NCBI RefSeq assembly: GCF_020097835.1
Contig: NZ_CP083666.1
Location: 434,001-498,000, forward strand
Length of the DNA: 64,000 nucleotides
DNA from: Haloprofundus halobius
Lineage (GTDB): Archaea; Halobacteriota; Halobacteria; Halobacteriales; Haloferacaceae
Direction: 5' to 3'
Under the pieces are notes generated by a model. The model was not told the origin of the DNA. It worked only from the letters and a program-made list of their open reading frames with translations, and made no database searches. The position numbers and the translations under genes are program-made. This document shows, piece by piece, positions 2,845-10,664 of this stretch (its first letter is position 1; the number at the start of each line of letters is the position of its first letter).

Positions 2845-4155
2845 TCAGAGGAGAACCGACGCGAGTGCGACGCTGACGGCGGCACCCGACAGCGTCGCGA
2901 GGAAGTTCACCGCCTGGTTGCCGACGCGGTCGCCCTCGACTGTCGCCCCGAGGAGGCTGTCGACGGTCATGCCGCCGACGCCGCCGAGCGCGACGATGAC
3001 TGCACCCACGAGCGGCGGGTCGAGCGGCAACAACAGCGCGGCGACGGCGGCGACGAGCGCCGCGCCCACCAGTCCGGCGAGTTCACCCTGCCACGTCACC
3101 GCGCCGTCGGTTCCGGGTTCGACCCGGCGGAGCGTGGTGATGAGTCGGGGGGTGTCGAAGAGGCCACCGACCTCGCTCGACAGCGTGTCGCTCATCGCCG
3201 TCGCGAGCGACCCGGCGAACGCGAACAGGAACAGCAACTCGATGCCCGCTCGTTCGGTCGCGGCGAAGCCGAGGACGGCCACCATCGCGACGGCGGCGTT
3301 GCCGAGGACGTTACCGCTGCCGCGCGCGCCGTCGTTCTCCTCGGCGACGCCGCGGTGGCGCTTCGACTCGTACTTGAACTTCGTCGAGAGCGCGCCGACG
3401 CCGAAGAACGTGATGAGGACGGCGAACCAGCCGAAACCGCCGAGGACGATGGTGAGCACGCCGAGGAGGATACCGGTGAGCATCCCCGGGACCGACGCGG
3501 TCCCGAGCGCGTACGAGACGTAGCCGAGGACGATAGTCAGCGCGAGCGCCGCGCCGACCTCCAGCGGCGACACGTCGACCGGAAGTTCGTGGAACAGCCA
3601 CAGCAGCAGGCCGGTCGAGACGAGCACCAGCGGGTCGTCGTGTTTGAGTAGAACCGCTCGGAGCAGCGCGGCGACGAGGCCGCCGACGGCCGCCAGAAAC
3701 AGCAGCTTCGGAAGCGAATGCGTCTCGGCGGTCACCGCGACGACGAGGGCCTGTCCGCCGACGGCCGCCAGAAAGCTGGCGACGGTGAAGCCGGCGACGG
3801 CGTGGAACTCGCCGTCGTGCCACCGGGAGACGAGTTGCTCGCCCAGGTTTCCGTAGGCGACGACGACGACGGCGGCGACGAACGCGCCGATCGGCATGCG
3901 CGTCTCCGGAACCGTCGCCAACACCGCTAGCGCCGCGGCGGCGAGCGCGAACCCCAACAGCCCGGTCAGCCGGCCGTCCTGGCGGTCGCCCGGACGGGCG
4001 AACAGCTCGAAGAGGCGGCCGTCCTCGCCGACGAACGCGGCGACAGCAGCGACGACGGCGAACGGAACCGCCGTGGCGACGCCGAGAGCGGGCGTGGCGA
4101 GCGCGATGGACCCGACGGCGGCGAACCCGGCCGCACGTCGGAGTGTCGAAGTCAC
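2845..4155 (-). CDS. DUF92 domain membrane protein
   Basis: A polytopic membrane protein of about 436 residues with roughly 12 hydrophobic segments. The C-terminal 200 residues match the DUF92 (TMEM19-like) pattern, including TFFGVGALSTKFKYESK and the conserved AMSDTLSSEVG. DUF92 proteins are related to CTP-dependent prenol kinases in some lineages (VTE5/VTE6-like), but that function is not shown for haloarchaea. I chose the GTG at 4155: a TATA-like TTAA at 4181-4184 lies 27 bases upstream, fitting a leaderless start, and a longer frame to 4284 adds a non-hydrophobic Arg-rich stretch with no family resemblance. Co-transcribed with the GNAT gene. Its nearness to prenyl-chain genes is suggestive only. 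Confidence 0.85.
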   Translation of the reverse strand: MTSTLRRAAGFAAVGSIALATPALGVATAVPFAVVAAVAAFVGEDGRLFELFARPGDRQDGRLTGLLGFALAAAALAVLATVPETRMPIGAFVAAVVVVAYGNLGEQLVSRWHDGEFHAVAGFTVASFLAAVGGQALVVAVTAETHSLPKLLFLAAVGGLVAALLRAVLLKHDDPLVLVSTGLLLWLFHELPVDVSPLEVGAALALTIVLGYVSYALGTASVPGMLTGILLGVLTIVLGGFGWFAVLITFFGVGALSTKFKYESKRHRGVAEENDGARGSGNVLGNAAVAMVAVLGFAATERAGIELLFLFAFAGSLATAMSDTLSSEVGGLFDTPRLITTLRRVEPGTDGAVTWQGELAGLVGAALVAAVAALLLPLDPPLVGAVIVALGGVGGMTVDSLLGATVEGDRVGNQAVNFLATLSGAAVSVALASVLL

Positions 4156-4178
4156 ACCCTCCGGTATCCACGAGGACC

Positions 4179-4185
4179 ACTTAAC
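4179..4185 (-). promoter_or_regulatory. TATA-like element of the DUF92 gene
   Basis: On the minus strand the sequence GGTTAAGTG is centred 27 bases before the GTG at 4155, the spacing expected for TATA box to transcription start in archaea, so translation would begin at the first base of the message. Confidence 0.5.
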
Positions 4186-4394
4186 CCTCCCGACATGGCA
4201 GACTTCGCCCCGTTCGCCAACCGAGCCGAGAGGGTTGTAGCGTCGTCGTGTCGTCGTCGTGGCGCCGATTTCGTGCACTATCACGTCGCCACCGCGACCA
4301 TCACGTCGCTACCGCCGCGCACCATCGCGCCGTCGCGCGCCGTCGAACGGGCCGAGAGAGATGGGCTTTTGACACCCGGCGGCAACTCTCCACC

Positions 4395-5003
4395 GTGGCC
4401 CTGTACGACGCATATCTCGCGCTTCGCCACCGTCGCTCGACGGCGGAGTCTCCCCACCACGTCGCCGTCGTCATCACCGAACGGGACCTGCTGGAGAAGG
4501 GTGCCTACGAGACGCTCGAACGGTTTCTGGAGTGGGCGTTCGAGTACGGGGCCGATCGCGTCACCATCTCGGTGAGCGTCCTCGACCCGGCGGTCGTGTC
4601 GACGCTCGAACGGGAGTTGCGCGGCGTCGAGGCCCCGCGCGAACTCGTCGTCCGCAGCCCCGACGACATCGAGCGCGCCGACGCCCCTATCCAGGTGAGC
4701 ATCGGACTCGGCGGCAAACACGAGTTCGCCGAGGCGGTTCGCTCGCTGGCCCGGGAGGTCGAGGCGGGAGAACTCGACCCCGAGGATATCGACGAAGACG
4801 ACATCGAGGGTCGCCTCGTCTTCCCCGACGAACCCGATTTGGTGCTCAAAACCGGCGCGGAGCGTCTCTCGGACTTCATGATCTGGCAGTCGGTGTACTC
4901 GGAACTGTACTTCACCGACGTGAACTGGCGGGACTTCCGCAAACGCGACTACCTCCGCGCGGTGTTGGACTACCAGGACCGAAAGCGAAGATTCGGGCGG
5001 TAG
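4395..5003 (+). CDS. cis-prenyltransferase-like protein lacking the catalytic DGN motif (NgBR-like partner)
   Basis: A 202-residue protein with the undecaprenyl diphosphate synthase fold pattern: an N-terminal strand HVAVVITERD (residues 22-31), ALS-like helices, LVLKTGAERLSDFMIWQSVY near 160-178, and WRDFRKRDYLRAVLDYQDR before the end. The catalytic Asp motif (DGNRR in its neighbour) is replaced by ITERD, so it should not ionise the allylic diphosphate on its own. The C-terminus keeps RRFG, equivalent to the RxG motif that binds isopentenyl diphosphate at the dimer interface. The GTG start at 4395 is about 28 bases after a TATA-like CTTTTGAC. It converges on the complete uppS-like gene 74 bases away. 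A regulatory or structural partner subunit is the best inference. Confidence 0.8.
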   Translation: MALYDAYLALRHRRSTAESPHHVAVVITERDLLEKGAYETLERFLEWAFEYGADRVTISVSVLDPAVVSTLERELRGVEAPRELVVRSPDDIERADAPIQVSIGLGGKHEFAEAVRSLAREVEAGELDPEDIDEDDIEGRLVFPDEPDLVLKTGAERLSDFMIWQSVYSELYFTDVNWRDFRKRDYLRAVLDYQDRKRRFGR

Positions 5004-5077
5004 CCCGAAGGCCGCCGTGGTAGCGGCGGAAGTTTGGACGCTGAGCGCCAGCGAAACGTCCGAAGGTCACCACCCAC

Positions 5078-6007
5078 TCAGTCCGCGGGCTCCGTCTCGT
5101 GGTTCGCGAGCGCCTCGTCCATCTCGGCGGCCCCGGCGCTCGTGAGTTGGTCGCGGAGTCGTTTGGCGACGGCCTTCGCATCCGCCAGTTCCGCCTCTGC
5201 CAGCGACCGGACCAGCGCGACGGCCCGCTTCGTCCGGTGGCGCTGCCACGTCGCCTCCCGCGACTCGTACGTCCGGATGCCGCGGAGGAAGTCGACCTTC
5301 GAGAACTCCGGCCAGTAGGGTGCACAGAAGAAGACGGCCGCCTCGTTGCCGTTGGCGTGCCACGGCAGGAAGTTCGACGTTCGTTCGTCGCCGCCGGTCC
5401 GGATGATGAGGTCGACGTCGCGGACGGGTCGGCGGTAGAGGCGGCGCTCGACCGCCTCGACGTCGATGTCGTCCGGCGAGAGGTCGCCGGCGTCGACGTC
5501 GCGGGCGACGTCGCGGGCGGCCTCCAGCAGTTCGGCCCGGCCCCCGTACGCCAGCGCGATGTTCAACGTGAACCGGTCGTAGCCGCGCGTCTGTCGCTCG
5601 GCGTACTCGACGGCGTCTCTCACCCGCTCGGGCAGACGCTCTATTGCGCCGATGGCGCGGATGCACACCTCGTTGTCGTGGACCCGCTCGGCGTCGGCGA
5701 ACTCGTACAGTTTCGTCTCGATGAGGTCGAACAGCGGTTCCAGCTCCTCGCGCGGCCGCTCGAAGTTCTCCGTCGAGAACGCGTACAGGGTCAGTTCGGC
5801 GATACCGAGTTCCTGACACCAGTCGAGAACGCGCTCCGTGGTCTCCGCGCCCGCGTGGTGGCCGTCCGGCGCGTCGTCGCCGTTCCGTCTGGCGTACCGC
5901 CGATTACCGTCCTGGATGATAGCGACGTGGGTGGGTCCCTCACCGACTTCGCCGCGAAGCAACCGCTCGTACCCCGATGCGAACTCCCGCCGGACCCGCC
6001 GAAGCAT
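5078..6007 (-). CDS. uppS: cis-prenyltransferase (UPP synthase family), catalytic subunit-like
   Basis: A 309-residue (from the start chosen) cis-prenyltransferase that would elongate an allylic diphosphate with isopentenyl diphosphate to make polyprenyl carrier for glycosylation. The catalytic IIQDGNRRYARRNG motif begins at residue 30 (Asp33), and the second block RTGGDERTSNFLPWHANGNEAAVFF is present. Where bacterial enzymes have RxRRFG after the YxxR helix, this protein has YESREATWQ, so the RxG motif is missing; it then continues about 60 residues beyond the usual end. I chose the ATG at 6007 because the following LRRVRREF resembles the family N-terminus; in-frame ATGs at 6034 and 6061 are alternatives. 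It faces the DGN-less homologue. Confidence 0.88.
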   Translation of the reverse strand: MLRRVRREFASGYERLLRGEVGEGPTHVAIIQDGNRRYARRNGDDAPDGHHAGAETTERVLDWCQELGIAELTLYAFSTENFERPREELEPLFDLIETKLYEFADAERVHDNEVCIRAIGAIERLPERVRDAVEYAERQTRGYDRFTLNIALAYGGRAELLEAARDVARDVDAGDLSPDDIDVEAVERRLYRRPVRDVDLIIRTGGDERTSNFLPWHANGNEAAVFFCAPYWPEFSKVDFLRGIRTYESREATWQRHRTKRAVALVRSLAEAELADAKAVAKRLRDQLTSAGAAEMDEALANHETEPAD

Positions 6008-6160: not shown

Positions 6161-6559
6161 ATGAGTGAGACGCTCGACGAAGACCTCTACAAGCGGACGA
6201 AAGCGCTCTTGAAACCCGGCGACATCCAACTCAACGGCGTCATCGTCCACACCGACCTCACCGGACAGGAGGACCTGGAGATGCACGAACTCACCGTCGA
6301 ACTGAACGACGTCATCGCCGAGCACGCGGGGAAGGGCGAGACGTACATCTACGCCGGTAACGACAACACCGACTTCGCCTCGAACCAGTTCCAGGGGCTG
6401 ACGCTGGAGGACGAGGAGTTCGTCTGGGAGTGTCAGCAACTGCTGCGAAACGGGGAGTTCAACCTCGTGTTCTACTACGAAGCGGACGCCGACCACGAGG
6501 CAATCGTCGAGGACGTAGAGGAGATGGGCTACCGCGTGACCGGCGTCCGCGGCGACTGA
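6161..6559 (+). CDS. DUF5778 family haloarchaeal protein
   Basis: A very acidic 132-residue soluble protein without signal peptide, membrane segment or cysteine-rich motif. The sequence pattern (LYKRTKALLKPGDIQLNG near the start, YIYAGNDNTDFASN mid-protein, YEADADHEAIVEDVEEMGY near the end) fits the family named DUF5778 in haloarchaea; function unknown. The ATG is 26 bases after a TATA-like element, supporting this start. It is transcribed divergently from uppS and convergently with the rhodanese gene, so probably monocistronic. The family name is from memory of the pattern, so moderately sure. Confidence 0.75.
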   Translation: MSETLDEDLYKRTKALLKPGDIQLNGVIVHTDLTGQEDLEMHELTVELNDVIAEHAGKGETYIYAGNDNTDFASNQFQGLTLEDEEFVWECQQLLRNGEFNLVFYYEADADHEAIVEDVEEMGYRVTGVRGD

Positions 6560-7488: not shown

Positions 7489-8595
7489 ATGAAACAGGCG
7501 GACGCGACGCTCTCCACGCTCGACCGCGCCATCAGCAACGCGTTTCAGGGCGGGTTCCCCGTCGTCGAACGTCCCTTCGACCCGGCCGCCGCGGCGCTTC
7601 GCGAGCGCGGCGTCGACGTCACCGCCGAGGAACTCCTCTCGCGCGTCCGGACGCTCGACGAGGAGGGGGTGCTCACGCGCTTCGGCGCGCTCGTCAACGC
7701 CGAGAACATCGGCGGCGCGGCGACGCTCGTCGCGATGCACGCGCCGCCGGAACGCTTCGAGGAAGTCGCCGACCAGGTGAACGCCCACCGCGAAGTGGCG
7801 CACAACTACGAGCGCGAGCACCCGCATCTCAACATGTGGTTCGTCGTCAGCGTCGCCGACGGCGAGTCGCGGAGCGACTCGGAGGCGAACGGTGTAACCG
7901 TGAACACGCGCGTCGACGAGGTCCTGGCTAAAATCGAGGCCGAGACGGGCCAGGAGACGTACAATCTCCCCAAACTGAACGAGTTCCGCGTCGAGGCCAA
8001 GTTCATGCTCGACGGACCGATTTCCGATGGTGACGTGGACTGCTCGCATCTCGGCCCCGACGTCGATCCCTCGGACAGGGCGACGCTCACACCACAGGAA
8101 CGCGACCTGGTCGTCGAGATTCAGGGCGGACTCCCGATCACGGAGACGCCGTACGCGGACGTCGCCGACGCGATAGGTGCCGAGCCCGGCTGGGTCGTCG
8201 AGACCATCAAGCGGTTCAATCTGGAAGGAAAAGTCCGCCGCGTCGGGGTCATCCCGAACCACTACGCGCTCGGCTACACCGAGAACGGAATGACCGTCTG
8301 GAACGTCCCCGACGAAGTAGTCGAGGAAGTCGGCCCCGCCGTCGCCTCGCTCGACTTCGTCACCCACTGCTACCGCCGGCCGCGACACGAGGGCGTCTGG
8401 CCGTACAACTTCTTCGCGATGACCCACGGCCGAAACGAGGAGGAGAGCCAGCGCCGAATCGAGGAGGTCCGCGAGACGATGAACGAGTACTGGGCGGTCG
8501 GCGACGACGACTGGGACTCGCTGTTCTCGACGCGCATCCTGAAGAAGACCGGAATCAGACTGGCCGAACGGGCGGAGGCGAACACGAGTGAGTGA
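7489..8595 (+). CDS. ahbAB: siroheme decarboxylase, fused AhbA-AhbB
   Basis: A 368-residue protein made of two Lrp/AsnC-like halves. The first (about 1-170) has a helix-turn-helix-like segment and VAHNYEREHPHLNMWFVV; the second (about 200-368) has THCYRRPRHEGVWPYNFFAMTHG. These are the AhbA and AhbB signatures; in most anaerobes and methanogens the two subunits are separate. The enzyme decarboxylates the acetate side chains on C12 and C18 of siroheme to give 12,18-didecarboxysiroheme in the alternative heme pathway. It heads a cluster with sirC and hemA, which agrees with this role. The linker around 145-160 is Ser/Glu/Asp-rich. A purely transcriptional role is less likely given the heme-binding-type His motifs. 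Confidence 0.9.
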   Translation: MKQADATLSTLDRAISNAFQGGFPVVERPFDPAAAALRERGVDVTAEELLSRVRTLDEEGVLTRFGALVNAENIGGAATLVAMHAPPERFEEVADQVNAHREVAHNYEREHPHLNMWFVVSVADGESRSDSEANGVTVNTRVDEVLAKIEAETGQETYNLPKLNEFRVEAKFMLDGPISDGDVDCSHLGPDVDPSDRATLTPQERDLVVEIQGGLPITETPYADVADAIGAEPGWVVETIKRFNLEGKVRRVGVIPNHYALGYTENGMTVWNVPDEVVEEVGPAVASLDFVTHCYRRPRHEGVWPYNFFAMTHGRNEEESQRRIEEVRETMNEYWAVGDDDWDSLFSTRILKKTGIRLAERAEANTSE

Positions 8596-8664
8596 GAGGC
8601 AGACGAACGGATTCACTCGGTACGTGGTGTGTCGAGCCGACAGACGGGAGTCCGACGACCCCTC

Positions 8665-9324
8665 ATGATACCCCTGTTCCACGACTTCACGAACGAGACG
8701 GTGCTCGTCTTCGGCGGCGGGGCGGTCGGCGCGCGGAAAGCGCGGCGCTTCGCGACGGAAGCCCACGTCGTCGTCGTCAGCCCCGAGTTCGGAGACGGCG
8801 AGGTCGCAGACGACGAGTTCGGCGGTGCGGAACTCGTCCGGGCAGCGCCCGCCCCCGGCGAGATAGCCGAGTGGGTTGACCGGTTCGACCCGGTACTGGT
8901 GGTCGCCGCGACGGACGACGAGGCGGTCAACGCCGCCGCGGAAGCCGCAGCACGCGACGCCGGAATCCTCGTCAACCGGACCGACCGCGCGGGGAGCCGC
9001 GACGCCGGCAGCGTCGTCGTCCCCGCAACCGTCGAGGACGGCCCGGTAACGGTGGCTATCTCGACGGGCGGACGGAGTCCGGCGCTCTCGAAACAGCTCC
9101 GCGAGCGTATCGAGACCCGACTCGACGGCGCGGGCGCGATGGCCGAACTGACGGGCGAGATTCGCACGGAGTTGAAAGCGGCGGGCGTCGCGCCGGACGA
9201 GCGGCGCGAGGCGCTCCGAGCGGTCGTCGCGTCGTCTTCTGTTTGGAAGGCTTTACGTACGGGCGAATCGAAAGCCCGTCAAGAGGCCCAGCGCGTGATA
9301 CGGAACAGAGGTGAGTCACCGTGA
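8665..9324 (+). CDS. precorrin-2 dehydrogenase / sirohydrochlorin ferrochelatase-like (SirC/Met8/CysG-N)
   Basis: A 219-residue bifunctional-type siroheme synthase domain. The NAD-binding Rossmann motif VLVFGGGAVGARKARRF is at residues 13-29, followed by AATDDEAVN, the conserved VNRTDRAGSRDAGSVVVPA and the C-terminal helical domain starting ISTGGRSPALSKQLRERIE. It oxidises precorrin-2 to sirohydrochlorin and may also insert iron, giving the substrate of the AhbAB enzyme encoded just upstream. I chose ATG 8665; a GTG 12 codons earlier is possible. The stop overlaps the hemA start by one base (TGATG), implying translational coupling. Confidence 0.9.
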   Translation: MIPLFHDFTNETVLVFGGGAVGARKARRFATEAHVVVVSPEFGDGEVADDEFGGAELVRAAPAPGEIAEWVDRFDPVLVVAATDDEAVNAAAEAAARDAGILVNRTDRAGSRDAGSVVVPATVEDGPVTVAISTGGRSPALSKQLRERIETRLDGAGAMAELTGEIRTELKAAGVAPDERREALRAVVASSSVWKALRTGESKARQEAQRVIRNRGESP

Positions 9325-10664
9325 TGGAGGAGACCGGCGTCATCTCCGGCGTGAGCGTCTCGCACGTCGACGCGACCGTCGACGAAATCGAGGCGGCCTG
9401 CCGAGACGATGTCCGGACGACACTCGCGGACCTCCTCGCGCGAGACGGCGTCGAGGAGGCGTTCGTCATCCAGACGTGCAACCGGGTTGAAGCGTACGTC
9501 GTCACCGAACGCCCCGCGCTCGGCGCGGCGGCGCTGGCTGACTTCGCCCCCGACGTGCGCGACGGCGCGGTCGTCACGCTCGACCACGAAGAGAGCCTGC
9601 GCCATCTGATGCGCGTCGCCGCCGGACTGGAGTCGCTCGTCCTCGGTGAGGATCAGATCCTCGGCCAACTCCGCCGTGCGGAGGCCGAGGCCCGCGCCGT
9701 CGACGGTATCGGGACGATGCTCGAAGACGCGCTGCGGAAGGCCGTCCACGTCGGCGAGCGCGCCCGAACCGAGACGAAGATAAACGAGGGCGCGGTGTCG
9801 CTCGGCAGCGCCGCCGTCCGCCTCGCCGAGACCGAGACGGCCGTCGAAGGCTCGACGGCGCTGGTCGTCGGCGCGGGCGAGATGGGGACGCTCGCCGCCC
9901 GCGCGCTCGACTCGGCGAACGTCGAGCGCCTGCTCGTCGCCAACCGGACGGTTCCCCACGCCGAACACGTCGCCGCAGAGGTCGACACCGACGCAACGGC
10001 CGTTGCCCTCGATGCCGCGGCCGCGGCCGCCTCCGAAGCAGACGTCGTCGTCACGGCGACCAGCAGCGCCGGCTACGTCCTCGACAGGGAGGCGCTCGCG
10101 GCGGCGGGCGAGACGGTACTCATCGACATCGCCCAACCCCGCGACGTCGATCCGGCGGCGGACGACATCCCCGGCGTCGTCGTCCGCGACATCGACGCGC
10201 TCGAAACCGTCACCGCCGAGACTCGCGAGCGTCGCCGCTCGGAGACCGACGTGGTCGAAGCGATGATCGACGACGAACTCGCGCGCCTGCTCGACGCCTA
10301 CAAGCGCAAGCGCGCCGACGACGCCATCAGCGCGATGTACGAGAGCGCCGACGCCGTCAAACGACGCGAAGTCCGGACCGCGCTGTCGAAACTCGACGCG
10401 CAGGGCGAGATGACCGACGAACAGCGCGAGACGGTCGAGGCGCTCGCCGACGCGCTCGTCGGCCAACTGCTCGCCGCGCCGACGAAGTCGCTGCGCGACG
10501 CCGCGGCCGACGACGACTGGACGACTATCCAGACGGCGATGCAGTTGTTCGACCCGAAGTTCGGCGACGGGGCGACGTTCGAGGCGGCCCCGTTCGACTC
10601 CGGCGAGCGGCCGGACGACGAGGACGCTCCGCCCCACGTCCTCAGGCAGTACTCGGACGACTGA
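9324..10664 (+). CDS. hemA: glutamyl-tRNA reductase
   Basis: A 446-residue NADPH-dependent glutamyl-tRNA reductase, the committed step from Glu-tRNA(Glu) to 5-aminolevulinate. The catalytic Cys lies in QTCNRVEAY (about residues 48-56), the substrate-binding LEDQILGQ equivalent reads LGEDQILGQLRRAEAEAR, the NADPH fold has VVGAGEMGTLAARAL near 175-190, and the C-terminal dimerisation helices end at about 415. A short acidic tail follows. It overlaps sirC by one base, and a GTG directly before the ATG is an alternative start. Together with ahbAB and sirC it couples tetrapyrrole entry to the siroheme route. Confidence 0.95.
   Translation: MEETGVISGVSVSHVDATVDEIEAACRDDVRTTLADLLARDGVEEAFVIQTCNRVEAYVVTERPALGAAALADFAPDVRDGAVVTLDHEESLRHLMRVAAGLESLVLGEDQILGQLRRAEAEARAVDGIGTMLEDALRKAVHVGERARTETKINEGAVSLGSAAVRLAETETAVEGSTALVVGAGEMGTLAARALDSANVERLLVANRTVPHAEHVAAEVDTDATAVALDAAAAAASEADVVVTATSSAGYVLDREALAAAGETVLIDIAQPRDVDPAADDIPGVVVRDIDALETVTAETRERRRSETDVVEAMIDDELARLLDAYKRKRADDAISAMYESADAVKRREVRTALSKLDAQGEMTDEQRETVEALADALVGQLLAAPTKSLRDAAADDDWTTIQTAMQLFDPKFGDGATFEAAPFDSGERPDDEDAPPHVLRQYSDD

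Follow-up and report, generated by a model that had tools for sequence, protein, structure and literature searches.

Adjacent haloarchaeal cis-prenyltransferase homologues with complementary active-site residues: a probable two-subunit enzyme found through the phylum Halobacteriota

Cis-prenyltransferases provide the polyprenyl diphosphates for glycan carriers. In the 64,000-nucleotide stretch of Haloprofundus halobius DNA which we analysed (the window), two genes of this family lie side by side, and a sequence-only reading of the region had suggested that each of them encodes one part of a two-subunit enzyme. The question raised by this locus is whether two proteins, each with an incomplete active site, together make one complete enzyme.

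Gene A (positions 5078–6007, minus strand; ATG start, 309 aa) is the candidate catalytic subunit without a C-terminal RxG motif. It matched PF01255 over profile positions 1–216 with 232 bits. Gene B (4395–5003, plus strand; GTG start, 202 aa), the candidate non-catalytic subunit which bears RxG and would be NgBR-like in its role, matched only the C-terminal half of the same profile (positions 115–219) with 92 bits, the cut-off being 27 in both cases. By these matches and by their fold, both proteins belong to the cis-prenyltransferase superfamily. The two genes are convergent and their stop codons are 74 bp apart. In A we read the catalytic motif DGNRR (5897–5911, minus strand) and, at the place of RRFG in complete enzymes, YESREATWQ (5243–5269, minus strand). 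In B the catalytic DGN region is replaced by ITERD (4473–4487) and the protein ends with RKRRFGR and the stop codon (4980–5003), so that the RxG itself (RFG, 4989–4997; all three on the plus strand) is one residue short of the C-terminus. These four motifs are the ones that the sequence-only reading had claimed for the two proteins, and each was found where it should be.

In a homomeric UppS one protein bears both DGN and RxG, of which A has only the first and B only the second. On TIGR00055, the model for the homomeric enzyme, A scored above the cut-off (240.7 against 109.55) and B below it (87.4). When the whole genome, which is 99.7% complete, was searched, A and B were the only PF01255 genes and no third was detected, so the genome contains no complete UppS with RxG; a second enzyme of that kind was what the sequence-only reading had named as speaking against it. 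An additional search of the genome with the A protein gave nothing of note, only one weak and broken match (E 0.013).

From the phylum Halobacteriota, 81 A and 71 B proteins were aligned with 17 complete archaeal enzymes and E. coli UppS, the numbering of which is used here; the residue counts exclude truncated sequences as well as L105 and L107, B-type proteins that are very short and divergent. Equivalents of D26, G27, N28, R30, N74, R77, R194, R200 and S202 were present in all 81 A proteins, that of R242 in four and that of Gly244 in none. The B proteins showed the opposite pattern. The equivalents of R241, G244 and E213 were conserved in 71/71 and that of R242 in 70/71, whereas the DGN-R site occurred in 0/71 (three proteins had D in the D26 column, never as DGN-R) and the equivalents of N28, R30, H43, N74 and R77 were lost. 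Most B members have kept R200 and S202, with K or R at R194. Both sets of residues, including Gly244, were found in every one of the 17 complete archaeal enzymes. Since residue conservation runs in opposite directions in the A and B sets, with 81 and 71 proteins, the complementarity of A and B is not a matter of chance. A and its homologues (81/81) thus have DGNxR and the substrate arginines without a C-terminal RxG, as a catalytic subunit would, and B and its homologues (71/71) have a C-terminal RxG with the catalytic residues gone, B also having the family fold, as would an RxG partner. Exactly one residue follows the glycine of RxG in 71/71 B proteins, and likewise in 15 of the 17 complete enzymes. 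We also considered whether B could be a pseudogene or a spurious ORF; this was ruled out by an identity of 61–82% among the aligned haloarchaea and 30–44% in the rest of the phylum.

Single-chain models of A and B were predicted with AlphaFold2. The B model (pLDDT 84.9) had the cis-prenyltransferase fold and was aligned with UppS (7jli; VIA Z 15.2, 187 residues, rmsd 2.9) and with NgBR (7pay_B; VIA Z 14.6, 178 residues, rmsd 4.2), the structural alignment extending through the last residue of B. The two scores are tied, so we make no claim from the fold that B is nearer to NgBR. A profile search with B matched human NUS1/NgBR (E 1.8e-10) up to the last residue; NgBR was absent from the results of a single-sequence PDB search with B. 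The A model (pLDDT 85.5) was aligned with E. coli UppS (1x06; VIA Z 28.7) and with human DHDDS (7pb1_A; VIA Z 28.6). It has long C-terminal helices (residues 237–287 and 290–304) past the core, predicted with lower confidence, and the phmmer alignment of A to DHDDS reaches residue 297.

Human DHDDS/NgBR (Rer2/Nus1 in yeast) is likewise composed of a catalytic subunit without RxG and a non-catalytic subunit with it. In the human complex the two substrate sites of DHDDS are both formed by the NgBR tail, whose C-terminal carboxylate and RxG contact DHDDS residues R37, R85 and N82; K293 is the C-terminal residue of NgBR, right after G292, and the mutation R290H lowers activity (PMC7573591). The A equivalents of the tail-contacting residues R37, N82 and R85 are invariant in our A alignment. 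NgBR, like B, has its RxG one residue from the C-terminus, and the two can be aligned both by profile and by fold; DHDDS, like A, is extended past the core, in A by helices. Unlike NgBR, B has no N-terminal membrane segment in the window, its sequence similarity to NgBR is weak, and the human and archaeal pairs are probably of separate origin. Bacterial UppS and the complete archaeal enzymes of Asgard, Thermoproteota and Thermoplasmatota are of the same family and fold, but in them one gene encodes the whole active site, whereas A and B are each incomplete.

The complementary motifs, the co-occurrence of the two genes described below, the lack of a complete enzyme in the genome and the predicted fold of B lead us to the view that A and B very probably constitute one heteromeric cis-prenyltransferase, in which A is catalytic and B gives RxG in trans. 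In A, DGNRR and the RTGGxxRxSN loop would bind the two substrates, allylic and isopentenyl diphosphate, and A would catalyse chain elongation. B, with the same fold as A and no working active site, would dimerise with A, and its RRFG-x tail would cross the interface and complete the diphosphate sites of A, as the RLGK of NgBR does in DHDDS. The fixed end of B, one residue after the glycine in 71/71, supports a heteromer because it matches the tail of NgBR. The product of the complex would be a polyprenyl diphosphate, leading to a dolichyl-type glycan carrier.

The survey of co-occurrence in haloarchaea, which the sequence-only reading had called for, covered 145 genomes, each at least 90% complete. 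B was found in all 145 and A in 144, that is, the two occur together in essentially all of them; the sole genome with B and without A (G072) probably owes this to an assembly gap. A and B lie within 10 kb of each other in 112 genomes, in 80 of these within 1 kb, and all 112 pairs are convergent. Because the arrangement is inherited, these pairs are not independent events, although the conservation is still clear. In 33/145 haloarchaea the two genes are unlinked, so the convergent pairing named in the earlier proposal is conserved without being required. Of 50 other sampled Halobacteriota, 48 have one B-type gene together with one or several of the A type, a few of them with an MM_0014-type gene in addition, and the other two (G151 and G159, of one genus in family f17, about 91% complete) have no PF01255 match and hence neither A nor B. 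A and B are also both present in two named Archaeoglobus genomes. Where the two genes are linked in these other Halobacteriota (16 pairs, at distances up to about 4 kb), they are convergent as well, and proteins read from their A and B loci follow the same complementary pattern. At the level of sequence and distribution, a two-subunit enzyme of haloarchaea is supported, but it is not specific to haloarchaea, being found through the sampled Halobacteriota.

Some variation was seen among the haloarchaeal loci. A second A gene accompanies a single B at L074, L076, L077 and L078 (genomes G104, G068, G061 and G098). In several genomes of genus g2 (L073 in G097 and others), the B match is split by a mid-protein insertion, and in the genomes with a split match B is unlinked from A.

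Where the split comes from is a separate question. PF01255 was matched in 64/69 Asgard, 71/71 Thermoproteota and 58/59 Thermoplasmatota genomes, and nearly all of the matched genomes have a PF01255 gene, usually a single one, which reaches the RxG columns; named Asgard and TACK members were among the genomes covered. Mainly because of the Asgard distribution, the archaeal split appears likely to be independent of the eukaryotic DHDDS/NgBR split. One ancient split common to A/B and DHDDS/NgBR, a rival view of the origin and not of the working of the enzyme, we regard as unlikely. A tree in which A and human DHDDS were constrained together was not rejected (p-AU 0.063, a marginal disfavour, for the careful tree and 0.80 for the quick one), but no B-type match was seen in the 64 matched Asgard genomes, whose PF01255 enzyme extends to the RxG positions, and in the careful tree, from which B was left out, human DHDDS joined the complete Asgard and Thermoproteota enzymes (90/77) while A formed its own clade (100/96). 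In the quick tree (97 rows) B was placed outside A and the complete enzymes; this placement was dropped and is not used, because held-together trees scored higher. On balance we favour a combined account in which the A/B pair is an ancestral trait of the whole phylum Halobacteriota. In this account a complete archaeal enzyme was duplicated and the copies lost complementary parts, independently of DHDDS/NgBR, with a possible further independent split in the thermoproteote genome G312 and possible intermediates in the Thermoplasmatota genomes G376, G388 and G392.

In G312, one protein (L229, C92:31387–32049) has DGN and no RxG and ends with RTYQRRKRILQKKQGMEA, and another (L234, C72:3353–3955) has DEN for DGN, ends with KRRFGR and complements the first; a binning error is possible, since the pair is unique among the 71 genomes of its order. 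The three Thermoplasmatota genomes have a DGN-bearing copy without RxG besides a complete enzyme (L231 in G388, L232 in G392 and L233 in G376), and these copies are possible intermediates toward a heteromer. Provided that the archaeal split is independent of the eukaryotic one, the two are a natural replicate of the change from a homodimeric enzyme to an obligate heteromer, one that comes with sister lineages keeping the ancestral state and with possible intermediates. The motif affected in human disease (NgBR R290) could also be modelled simply with A and B.

Methanosarcina belongs to the same phylum as the haloarchaea in GTDB, and a heteromeric archaeal cis-prenyltransferase is already reported from this phylum. 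According to Emi et al. 2019, as cited in PMC8131916, MM_0618 and MM_1083 of M. mazei form a heteromeric enzyme with C45-50 products, and the citing paper holds that it makes the glycan carrier. A further paralogue, MM_0014, is active as a homodimer and has short products (PMC8131916). The MM_0014 family ends with ITLGG, without RxG; neither A nor B is a full-length protein of about 220 aa with this end, and genes of the MM_0014 type were seen only as an additional gene in other archaeal genomes. In a sampled Halobacteriota genome an orthologue of MM_0014 (E 5e-80 to 7caq) is accompanied by a single B-type gene and two of the A type, and the simplest reading of the M. mazei pair is therefore one A and one B subunit. 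We infer that MM_0618 and MM_1083 are these two subunits, which is which following by elimination only. Like A and B, the M. mazei enzyme is thus a cis-prenyltransferase encoded by two archaeal genes, and the glycan carrier is its proposed product; unlike M. mazei, the sampled haloarchaea mostly have two genes and no third of the MM_0014 type. One haloarchaeon, G002, has a third, very divergent PF01255 paralogue (L064, G002:C1:478925–479599), with PDGHRR replacing DGNRR.

Since MM_0014 is active without RxG (PMC8131916), the loss of RxG does not prove that A alone is inactive. A could work as a homodimer without RxG, as this paralogue does, and B could be a separate regulator or binding protein, or make no enzyme. 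We consider this very improbable: E213 and the RxG end persist in 71/71 B proteins, in which the active site is otherwise gone, A and B co-occur almost without exception, and the other two M. mazei paralogues form a heteromer, as PMC8131916 reports from the earlier study. That B itself still acts as a transferase or binds diphosphates, in a residual or a different way, might be suggested by the R200 and S202 that most members retain and by the K or R at R194, but is hardly credible given the loss of D26, N28, R30, H43, N74 and R77 and a 202-residue model with fewer helices than that of A.

The neighbourhood of the proposed A–B heteromer bears on its product. A DUF92 (PF01940) membrane protein is encoded divergently from B in the window (2845–4284, minus strand; 193 bits, start codon uncertain). 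Each haloarchaeal genome has exactly one DUF92 gene; in 124/145 it is divergent from B and within 4 kb, and in 14 genomes with A located elsewhere it still adjoins B. Makarova et al. found uppS to be the single conserved context of arCOG02245 (pfam01940, DUF92) and proposed for DUF92 an isoprenoid step requiring kinase activity (PMC5898192). The uppS-like gene which adjoins DUF92 in haloarchaea is the non-catalytic subunit B. Judged from their family, from the precedent in M. mazei and from the neighbouring DUF92 gene, A and B may make the glycan carrier.

To the M. mazei report we add the extent of the system across Halobacteriota, which is apparently phylum-wide, the complementarity at the level of residues, the convergent and divergent gene arrangements that are conserved around the pair, and the contrast to other archaea with their single complete enzymes. 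We found no description of a haloarchaeal heteromeric enzyme in the open-licence literature, though one may exist elsewhere, and uppS is not a subject of the Haloferax 'Open issues' paper. Because A passes TIGR00055, annotation pipelines would name it uppS, a label which hides that A probably needs B. As it probably does, glycan-carrier genetics in Haloferax and Halobacterium should treat both genes as one enzyme.

Two further features were seen on the other side of A. Just upstream of it, on the opposite strand, a DUF5778 protein is encoded (6163–6559, 217.6 bits). At 7489–10664, a siroheme decarboxylase-like (NirDL/AsnC) gene heads an apparent heme/siroheme cluster; the ORFs after it resemble siroheme synthase and glutamyl-tRNA reductase, the NirDL/AsnC gene being the one checked against Pfam.
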